From assembly GCF_007741535.1 (NCBI RefSeq), contig NZ_CP036525.1, positions 6,448,001-6,512,000 of the forward strand: 64,000 nucleotides of DNA. The letters run 5' to 3'. Below are positions 17,434 to 26,148 of the stretch, piece after piece (within the stretch, counting starts at the first letter, position 1; every line of letters begins with the position of its first letter). This stretch comes from Rubripirellula lacrimiformis. Its GTDB lineage: Bacteria > Planctomycetota > Planctomycetia > Pirellulales > Pirellulaceae. A program made the position numbers and the translations under genes. Under the pieces are notes generated by a model. The model searched no databases, had not been told where the DNA came from, and was given only the letters and a program-made list of their open reading frames with translations.

Positions 17434-18350
17434 AGCAAAGCAATCGAACACTCATCACAAGGCAGGCGGACATCTGACCAGGCTTATTAGTGTTCGATTA
17501 GTGGAGATTAGCGTTCTCACTCCTTTCCCTCGACAGCCTCGACGCGAATGAGCGGATGCAGTCGGCGATGACAGGGAACCAAAGCAAAAACGACAAGAAC
17601 ACTAATCAAAGCAATCGAACACTCATCAAAGCGCTGACATGCATCAGACCAGGCTGATCAGTGTGCGATTAGTGAAGATTAGCGTTCTCACTCCTTTCCC
17701 TCGACAGCCTCGACGCGAATGAGCGGATGCAGTCGGCGATGACAGGAAACCAAAGCAAAAACGACAAGAACACTAATCAAAGCAATCGAACACTCATCAA
17801 AGCGCTGACGTGCACCAGACCAGGCTGATCAGTGTGCGATTAGTGAAGATTAGCGTTCTCACTTCTTCTTCTCGACAGCCTCGACGCGAATGAGCGGATG
17901 CAGTCGGCGATGACAGGGAACCAAAGCAAAAACAACAAGAACGCTAATCGACGCAATCGAACACTCATCGAAGGGCTGACGTGCGTCAGACCAGGCTTAT
18001 TAGTGTTCGATTAGTGGAGATTAGCGTTCTCACTTCTTGCCCTCGACAGCCTCGACGCGAATGAGCGGAACGCTCAGCGATGAGCAGGCGGTGAAGCCAA
18101 AACGACAAGAACACTAATCAAAGCAATCGAACACTCATCAAAGCGCTGACGTGCGTCAGACCAGGCTGATCAGTGTCCGATTAGTGAAGATTAGCGTTCT
18201 CACTCCTTGTTCTCGACAGCCTCGACGCTAACGAGCAGATGCAGTCGGCGGAGGTCCCCCAGTGAGACAGCACCTTCGAGGAACGCGAATCGTGACAATC
18301 GATCACTCATCACAGGGCTGGCGGATACCGGATCACGTCGATGAGTGCGT
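17434..18350. repeat. 170/171-bp tandem array, left block
   Basis: Five near-identical units follow each other. The landmark CTCGACAGCCTCGACG recurs at 17529, 17700, 17871, 18042 and 18212, a spacing of 171, 171, 171 and 170 bp. Each unit contains two imperfectly complementary arms of about 33 nt around a loop of about 26 nt; in one copy the arms are 17596-17628 and 17655-17688. A sixth, degenerate copy of the hairpin (CACTCATC ... GATGAGTG) lies at about 18298-18350, just beyond the 3' end of the GxxExxY gene. I see no credible gene in this block. Confidence 0.92.
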
Positions 18351-18375
18351 CTTTGGGGAAGGTTGCCTTCTTCGA

Positions 18376-18768
18376 TCACTCGTTCCTGCGATCGTGAAGA
18401 TCATTGACAACGAATCGCTTCCACTCCAGGGCACCCTTCTTGCCAAAGTTGATCAAGTACCCAACCTGCTTGCACGCAATCCGCATGTAGTTAAACAGTT
18501 GGGCATCGTGTTCCGAACTCAGTTCTTTCAGCGCTTTCAGCTCAACAACGATCTCGTCGAACACCAGCAAATCCGGCCGATACTTCGGCCTCAACAGGTG
18601 CCCTTTGAAGAACACATCCAACTCGACCTGAGCGTTGAAAGGAATGCACCGCAAACCGAGTTCAACTTCCAGCGCCGACTGATAAACATCTTCCGCCATG
18701 CCATACCCGAGCTCGTTGTAGACCTCAAAAGCGGCACCCATCAAGTCGTATCCTTCTTGTTTGAACAT
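18376..18768 (-). CDS. GxxExxY family protein (PD-(D/E)XK-like fold)
   Basis: The 130-residue product matches the GxxExxY family (PDDEXK_3 type). The signature is GMAEDVY at residues 23-29. A nuclease-like core follows with Asp 66 (YRPDLLVF) and the E-x-K pair Glu 76/Lys 78 (VVELKAL), and then the conserved tail HDAQLFNYMRIACKQVGYLINFG with an N-terminal His. The putative metal-binding residues are thus all present, but no biochemical role is established for the family. An AGAGGAG ribosome-binding site precedes the start; ATG at 18768 and GTG at 18774 are both possible. It is the only gene inside a 2.4-kb tandem hairpin array and replaces a non-integer number of units (landmark gap of 821 bp). 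Confidence 0.9.
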   Translation of the reverse strand: MFKQEGYDLMGAAFEVYNELGYGMAEDVYQSALEVELGLRCIPFNAQVELDVFFKGHLLRPKYRPDLLVFDEIVVELKALKELSSEHDAQLFNYMRIACKQVGYLINFGKKGALEWKRFVVNDLHDRRNE

Positions 18769-18854
18769 AACCACTCGACTCCTCTAAAACTGACATCTCG
18801 AAACACAATACGAACATCAATTTTACCGAACAACTTCCTGATCTGTGATCGATC

Positions 18855-19854
18855 AGCAAAATTTTGCGTTCCCTTTCCGAGATCCACGAGTGAAACGCCG
18901 ATGCGAACAAACGCTCGGCAACGACGACGCATCGCAGCCCAAACAGAATGAACGCTAAGCAAAGGGAAGACGAACAACTGACCAGGTCAATGAGTGCGTC
19001 AATAGCGAAGATTAGCGTCCTCACTTCTTTCCCTCGACAGCCTCGACGTGAATGAGCGGAACGCTCAGCGATATGCAGGCAGTGAAGCTAAAACAACAAG
19101 AACGCTCATCAAAGCAATCGAACACTCATCACAAGGGCTGACCCGCATCAGGCCAGGCATATTAGTGTTCGATTATTGGAGACTAGCGTTCTCACCTCTT
19201 TTCCTCGACAGCCTCGACGTGAATGAGCGGAACGCTCAGCGATATGCAGGCAGTGAAGCAAATACAACAAGAACGCTCATCAAAGCAATCGAACACTCAT
19301 CAAAGGGCTGACGCGCATCAGGCCAGGCTTATTAGTGTTCGATTATTGGAGATTAGCGTTCTCACTCCTTTCCCTCGACAGCCTCGACGCGAATGAGCGG
19401 ATGCGGTCGGCGATGACAGGAAACCAAAGCAAAAACAACAAGAACACTAATCAAAGCAATCGAACACTCATCAAAGGGCTGACACGCATCAGGCCAGGTT
19501 TATTAGTGTTCGATTATTGGAGATTAGCGTTCTCACTTCTTTCCCTCGACAGCCTCGACGCGAATGAGCGGAACGCTCAGCGACATGCAGACAGTGAAGC
19601 AAAAACAACAAGAACGCTCATCAAAGCAATCGAACACTCATCAAAGGGCTGACGCGCATCAGGCCAGGCATATTAGTGTGCGATTAGTGAAGATTAGCGT
19701 TCTCACTTCTTTCCCTCGACAGCCTCGACGTGAATGAGCGGAACGCTCAGCGATATGCAGGCAGTGAAGCTAAAACAACAAGAACGCTCATCACAGAGCA
19801 GACGAACATCTGATCAGGTTGATGAGTATTCGATTAGTGGAGATTGGCGTTCTG
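18855..19854. repeat. 170/171-bp tandem array, right block
   Basis: Five further units carry the landmark CTCGACAGCCTCGACG at 19033, 19204, 19374, 19545 and 19715 (spacing 171, 170, 171 and 170 bp), in the same orientation as the left block. The part between about 18855 and 19020 is a strongly diverged copy lying directly upstream of the GxxExxY gene. The last unit decays after a final arm (TGATGAGTATTCGATTAGTG) near 19854. The short open frames crossing these units are by-products of the repeat and are not annotated. Confidence 0.9.
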
Positions 19855-25690: not shown

Positions 25691-26148
25691 CACAGCAGGC
25701 TCATCAAGAAAGTCAGGTGTCTCCATTACAGTTGGCCCATTGTAATGGCTGGCGTCCCACGCTGGCAGGCAAACCGGAAGATTGCAAATTGCAAAATGAA
25801 CATTGCAAATCGGATATCGGATCGGCAACGAAAATCGAGACGCTACGCGGAAACGGACAGACCGAACCGAGTCACACAGATCTCAGCGGAAACAACCGGC
25901 ACACCGGGACTCGCCCGCATCCCAGCGTTTCAATTTGCGATTTGAAATGTTCATTTTGCAATTTGCAATCTCCCCCTCCCCCCTCCGCAACCAACCATTG
26001 CCCAAAAATCGCATTGGGGCAAATACCGTTCTGCCCGCATCTGAATGCCCGCGGATTCGATTAGCGGATAGAATGGCTTCCAACCGCTGATTTGTTTTGT
26101 ACCGACCACGTGTTCCGCCTTTTTCCTCTCCCATTCCATCCGAGTGTC
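25691..26148. other. Intergenic region between divergent sulfatase and DUF6702-like genes
   Basis: This 458-bp region contains a 193-bp element bounded by 34-bp inverted repeats (described separately) and probably the promoters of both flanking genes. I see no gene or tRNA in it. Confidence 0.6.
25779..25971. repeat. 34-bp inverted repeat flanking a 125-bp core
   Basis: The arm at 25779-25812 (starting AGATTGCAAATTGC) is the reverse complement of 25938-25971 with one mismatch. The arms are AT-rich and built from repeated TTTGCAA words, unlike the GC-rich surroundings. The core has no open frame of note. It could be a miniature mobile element or a long-stem intergenic repeat. Confidence 0.85.

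Follow-up and report, generated by a model that had tools for sequence, protein, structure and literature searches.

The window, that is, the whole stretch of 64,000 nucleotides analysed here (positions 6448001–6512000 of the source genome, a single contig of 8.54 Mb), contains a GxxExxY gene (18376..18774, minus strand; TIGR04256/PF13366, PD-(D/E)XK-type) between two blocks of tandem hairpins. Tandem Repeats Finder places the left repeat at 17436–18250 (period 171, 4.8 copies, 89% matches) and the right one at 19009–19793 (period 170, 4.6 copies, 90%), and a landmark shared by the units falls at 17492, 17663, 17834, 18005 and 18175 on the left and at 18996, 19167, 19337, 19508 and 19678 on the right, all ten in a single orientation. 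A sequence-only reading had described ten 170/171-bp units, five per side and in one orientation, which repeat finding and landmark positions both bear out, and a gap of 821 bp around a single GxxExxY gene, which is exactly the distance from landmark 18175 to landmark 18996.

The left block (17434..18250) comprises five 171-bp units and the right block (18949..19854) five units of 170/171 bp, the first of them decayed, with a decayed sixth near 19828 (an extra landmark, as is that near 18345); a unit consists of a hairpin, whose two inverted arms enclose a loop of some 26 nt, and then a spacer. Decayed hairpins adjoin the gene at its 3′ end (18277..18351, landmark near 18345) and its 5′ end (18949..19020, landmark 18996). 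An arm consists of a 7-mer in three imperfect copies, and the best arms read CGCTAATCTCCACTAATCGAACACTAAT, that is, three CRCTAAT words (intact at 17486..17513, minus strand). Under the strict word pattern all three words are kept in five left arms and one right arm (the other such arms start at 17657, 17828, 17999, 18169 and 19672), and the middle word is altered in the remaining right arms. One hairpin taken from the right block folds far better than shuffled versions of itself (z −5.6, none of 200 equalling it); one from the left block has no clear advantage (z −1.7, 13 of 200 equalling it). The 171-bp unit has 11 matches in the genome, all within 6465436–6467816, and being unique to this locus it was rejected as a functional partner of the gene. 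A known RNA family was likewise rejected, the sole match being a human lncRNA at 20.3 bits against a cut-off of 50.

The protein is 132 aa long from a GTG start and 130 aa from the ATG at 18768, the latter agreeing with the 130 residues first read. It matches TIGR04256 (E 1.3e-37; 128.7 bits against a curated cut-off of 35) and PF13366 (E 3.2e-39; 136.6 bits against 22); GxxExxY is, to our knowledge, a curated NCBI family without a settled function. The motif RPD66...E76-L-K78 holds the Asp66, Glu76 and Lys78 singled out earlier, and across 43 homologues Asp66 and Lys78 never vary, while the frequency of Glu76 is 90% or more. For the AF2 model (mean pLDDT 93.4), the nearest solved folds found by Foldseek are 4ic1 (SSO0001, TM 0.60 by query), which we take to be Cas4-like, and lambda exonuclease (0.51–0.53). 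Conserved motif residues, model and these exonuclease-type folds agree on a PD-(D/E)XK core, as the sequence-only reading had stated for the family; a sequence search for solved relatives returned none at E 1. The TIGR04256 match and this fold rule out a RAYT/HUH identity. The dN/dS ratio is 0.02–0.06 in four of nine pairs, synonymous sites being saturated in the other five, and where it can be measured the gene is under strong purifying selection.

The source genome has two further GxxExxY genes: the second adjoins six units spaced at 202 or 211 bp with CACGAAT arms, and the third has a single inverted arm of CGCGGAG words on each side. As the three genes have three differing repeats of one design, the words rather than the unit appear to matter. 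About ten sites in this genome have CACGAAT triples (28 matches, against 0 for the reversed control), and one of these sites adjoins a GxxExxY gene.

Inverted word arms at GxxExxY genes

We compiled 163 loci: 83 (43 + 40) from the source genome and 59 relatives, which are part of the matches listed (most unfetched matches are partial), and 80 from a genome collection, for which the sole criterion was similarity of the protein (the best 80 among 587 candidates listed). A fragment locus, L043, was excluded from the set. The arm score was the best inverted match between the upstream and downstream flanks, with flanks about 1 kb out as controls and a threshold of 14.5. This threshold was set on the distal control of the first set after its first 31 loci had been viewed, which leaves the 76 loci of the second set as the fair test. 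In the source genome and its relatives, 25 of 31 scorable loci have inverted arms around the gene and none of the 27 distal controls does (the 32nd locus being too short for scoring); in the independent set 57 of 76 scorable loci have them, against 1 of 56 controls (from the best 80 of 587; four loci with short flanks were dropped). Pooled, 82 of 107 scored loci have them, against 1 of 83 distal controls, and 25 of 107 fall below 14.5. The earlier link between gene and repeats is supported for arm-built hairpins and unsupported for the 170-bp unit, which is confined to one locus. Among 931 mispaired flanks of different loci, the 95% point is 15, the 99% point 20 and the maximum 25.5; about one pair in twenty scores high, as would be expected if the loci share a grammar, and a score of 14.5 is therefore by itself no proof of arms. 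Two or more words are contained in 51 of the 57 matched stretches of the independent set, and fewer than two in six (L092, L100, L117, L124, L150 and L156).

This arm grammar is an ACC-led CRCNRAK word repeated three times, mostly with 1–4 nt between words; AC usually precedes the word. Triple words lie within 600 bp of 131 of 154 short-form genes (and are absent near the other 23), 2 of 9 long-form paralogues and 2 of 30 PF05635 loci. Counted by 600-bp region, 189 of 306 proximal regions hold them and 15 of 281 distal regions do. The 7-mer word, not the 171-bp unit, is the feature that recurs elsewhere. Some genes lie within rows of hairpins, as in the window (also L019, L027 and L042). Among long-form PF13366 proteins encoded in these same genomes (L193–L201, 243–263 aa), arms are absent save at L196 and, weakly, L197, and this branch is possibly host-serving. 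At L030 and L017 the arms reach into the reading frame at its ends, so that their words are translated, and at L069 (3435–3552) one arm of the hairpin CACGAATGA has grown into a nine-base tandem repeat.

Among the best 80 of 587 candidates, 72 loci have triple-word arms, drawn from 14 of 15 NCBI phylum names; none were found at the sole Chlorobiota locus, and two loci are archaeal (Methanobacteriota) metagenome contigs, for which contamination is possible. A search of plasmids for GxxExxY gave eight records, and arms were read in one, a plasmid-labelled Bacteroides finegoldii record in which the gene lies between radA and a gene for an FAD protein; none was found in the phage records searched.

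Words, protein types and genomes

GxxExxY proteins fall into two types, with or without a two-residue insert (as KDG) before the last conserved Arg; the insert residues make a short helix (L022 model), and the window protein lacks them. We typed the 143 intact proteins of the 163 loci, excluding 20 (nine long forms, L192, L202–L205, L186 and the stop-bearing frames L101, L109, L160, L163 and L175). The last base of the word, where a word was found, is G for 99 of 100 insert proteins and T or A for all 24 others, in a typing that was not blind, protein tails having been read with the words in view. By type, insert proteins have 99 words ending in G, one in A (L089) and 14 loci without a word, and non-insert proteins 20 in T, four in A, none in G and five without, so that a word was not found in 19 of the 143 typed loci. 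On the protein tree the word changes 40 times, against 73.1 (sd 2.3) when shuffled. The two types are a single split on this tree, and the within-type test is therefore the stronger: 29 changes against 49.8 within the insert type (minimum of 1000 shuffles, 42) and 10 against 14.7 within the other. Such agreement between word and protein could arise through linkage alone, arms and gene travelling together.

Word triples were counted in 60 genomes with three spacing patterns. The median per genome is 33 in the 33 genomes with the gene against 1 in the 27 without (p 3.5e-10); these counts take in gene-adjoining arms and matches that overlap within runs, and the patterns do not cover the spacing found in the window. 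Kinship is addressed by one comparison alone, that within genus (7 genomes with the gene against 15 without; p 2.6e-4). When a poorly controlled pattern is removed, the medians are 22 against 1 (p 4.3e-10; within genus, 4.7e-4). Five genomes (G034, G044, G050, G053 and G058) give high values for the period-8 reversed control, which we think is caused by true NGAG words; the period-9 control is clean (777 true against 20 reversed with the gene, 24 against 8 without). As in REP–RAYT systems, the repeats are abundant only where the gene is present, with exceptions in both directions (G024 has 16 words and no gene detected; G057 has the gene and no words). Word counts are 300, 316, 91, 50 and 0 in genomes that have GxxExxY only and 3, 2 and 0 in those that have PF05635 only; CRCNRAK words go with GxxExxY, not with PF05635.

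A strict rule by which genomes hold only the words of their own gene type is unsupported: word class and gene type do not match per genome (p 0.26; 11 informative genomes, mostly drafts). Genomes in which only non-insert genes were found contain AG words (G048, 32; G050, 136; G054, 41; G058, 35), some of these counts resting on the period-8 pattern, for which the reversed control is high in G050 and outnumbers the true matches in G058. G042, assembled as one contig and with one insert gene, holds 20 AT words.

Element ends, an empty site and the window array

Among the pairs listed, seven (L016 or L022 with each other and with L084, L085 and L086) show homology that runs from arm to arm and stops at the arms; as in insertion sequences, inverted ends here bound a homologous segment. 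Both arms are one and the same 27-base sequence in L022 and L084, though 68% of their synonymous sites differ. L036 and L175, in one genome, are 79% alike over 651 bp, adjoining hairpins included, and L175 has an in-frame stop.

Same-genus orthologues of the window gene, L081 and L082 (79 and 73% DNA identity), match the window in gene and arms and not in flanks, and are located at other sites. Each has a single CACTAAT arm per side and no array, so that the special tie to the 170-bp unit proposed earlier is unsupported; by the condition that the earlier reading named first as refuting it, no repeats near the gene in close relatives, the array can be dispensed with and the arms cannot. Gene-less CACTAAT hairpins occur in G018 and G021; their loops measure about 10–20 nt and their arms have the polarity seen around L081. 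At the L082 site, 646 bases in G011 (orthologue plus arms) are set against 30 in G001, between flanks that are 82 and 77% identical, that is, an occupied and an empty site as for insertion sequences. In this pair, too diverged for a target-site duplication to be made out, the alignment gives way a few tens of bases beyond the arms. No word triple lies at this site in G001 and eight other same-genus genomes, the source genome included; G001 is empty at the DNA level, and the other eight were scored by word triples only. A self-amplifying repeat system, as originally proposed, is still the most economical account, with the protein perhaps nicking or cutting the arms.

A candidate selfish element and its alternatives

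Computed from sequence, the architecture, its phylum spread, a word that tracks protein type, word abundance, purifying selection and one site occupied in one genome and empty in relatives suggest that the GxxExxY element is a tiny, previously undescribed kind of selfish DNA. That an arm-bounded element exists we hold with high confidence: it would take the form arm–gene–arm′ over about 450–600 bp, with GxxExxY as the coding part and each arm made of three CRCNRAK 7-mers, the two arms mutually inverted. The protein, a lone PD-(D/E)XK core, probably reads the arm words; that it also catalyses mobility, by pairing both arms and nicking or cutting there so that the arm-bounded DNA is copied or moved, we put slightly below an even chance. 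Gene-less hairpins with the same arms may be non-autonomous passengers, as REPINs are to RAYTs, and the window may be an old resident autonomous copy amid tandemly amplified gene-less hairpins. Taken as a whole, the account that we prefer, and to which we give about even prospects, is a minimal, REPtron-like selfish element: its PD-(D/E)XK protein would recognise the words of its own arms and mobilise the DNA that arms enclose.

The most serious rival comes from PF05635 genes, which were taken as a control. These have inverted word arms at 22 of 28 loci, against 0 of 28 distal controls (of 30 loci, the two that lie at contig edges are not in this count), and many of the same genomes hold both PF05635 and GxxExxY genes. 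The arm words of this 23S_rRNA_IVP-family (L235–L263; for example, AGGGGTC, TTAGCGA, GGCTATC and ATTTGTC) are mostly of period 7, judged by eye, in a grammar that differs from that of GxxExxY. Within the window, TTCAATTTGCAATTTGAAATG is present twice at 25929–25969 and looks, by eye, like the arms of the source genome's own PF05635 gene (L261); this site is perhaps a dispersed arm of the PF05635 system. We know of no nuclease site in PF05635. In both systems a small gene sits between inverted arms that consist of short words in tandem, the proteins being unrelated and the word grammars private, and in one species the rRNA form of the PF05635 gene has been termed a selfish element in the available text of PMC4990558.

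Because an unrelated protein has analogous arms, arms can spread without the GxxExxY nuclease, and a third machinery might spread arm-bounded DNA with GxxExxY as cargo or as an arm-binding, non-cutting helper. Such machinery could be a transposase, RAYT-like or of another kind, that acts in trans, or else slippage during replication together with template switching at the hairpins, and both the words found without a matching gene type and a tandem array whose mixed spacers resemble recombination are in keeping with it. Against this stand a family-specific grammar (CRCNRAK triples at 2 of 30 PF05635 loci), a word that follows the protein even within one type, and words that are abundant in four of the five genomes with GxxExxY and without PF05635; we consider this explanation unlikely, if the strongest of the rivals. 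Homing-type copying, in which the nuclease would cut an arm-like target, repair would copy the element in and single hairpins would be landing sites, fits the PD-(D/E)XK fold with its conserved D, E and K and the four genes within hairpin rows, and is rendered improbable by one-type elements that are found in unrelated surroundings and share homology no further than the arms, which differs from site-specific homing, and by the lack of a word triple at the empty G001 site. A host-serving repair or defence nuclease, with arms at which its own gene is regulated or the transcript processed, would agree with the strong purifying selection and with arms that sometimes overlap frame ends (L017, L030), and is the least credible reading given that both arm polarities surround the gene (74 '+gene-' and 17 '-gene+' among 143 loci) and that the source genome has many arm copies that are not next to any GxxExxY gene.

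Returning to the selfish element driven by its own nuclease, we infer that the protein binds and cuts the arms, that arm-bounded DNA is mobilised and that gene-less hairpins are passengers. More tentatively, there may be a wider class of 'word-armed' selfish genes with at least two unrelated proteins and private grammars, in which a few bases of the short word repeated in every arm would determine the protein subtype that recognises it and GxxExxY would be a mobile element with a lone PD-(D/E)XK driver of about 130 aa and a readable protein-to-word code. Once GxxExxY is tied to a defined DNA word, its function can be put to a direct test, the link between word and subtype offers ready specificity experiments, and the words may account for short intergenic repeat families found across many phyla. 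In the literature searched, most subscription journals and preprints lying outside it, neither a link between GxxExxY and repeats nor any of six arm strings sought in paper text was found, and the passages available that name the family mention it in passing only.

Among known systems, REP/REPIN–RAYT is described in the available text of PMC3733652 as an element of one gene with palindromic or inverted repeats on its flanks, accompanied by many dispersed gene-less palindromes, RAYTs being HUH tyrosine transposases and many REPs GTAG-tagged. The GxxExxY element resembles such REPtrons or TIRtrons in having one gene between inverted repeats along with dispersed gene-less palindromes, and differs in that its protein has a PD-(D/E)XK core rather than that of an HUH tyrosine transposase, its arms are a 7-mer repeated three times, and word class does not match gene class per genome; the GTAG tag is absent from base counts outside 74 GxxExxY arms, where AC is seen instead. 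Like insertion sequences and MITEs it has inverted ends, its own gene and gene-less derivatives, but it has no known transposase fold and spans only about 450–600 bp. TnsA of Tn7 is a PD-(D/E)XK enzyme that acts with a DDE partner at element ends, each of which has several short binding sites, whereas no partner gene is evident between GxxExxY arms. Nucleases of the Cas4 and lambda-exonuclease type provide the nearest solved folds, without a solved relative detectable by sequence. If the preferred account is true, the GxxExxY element would be a nuclease-driven counterpart to the HUH-driven REP systems.
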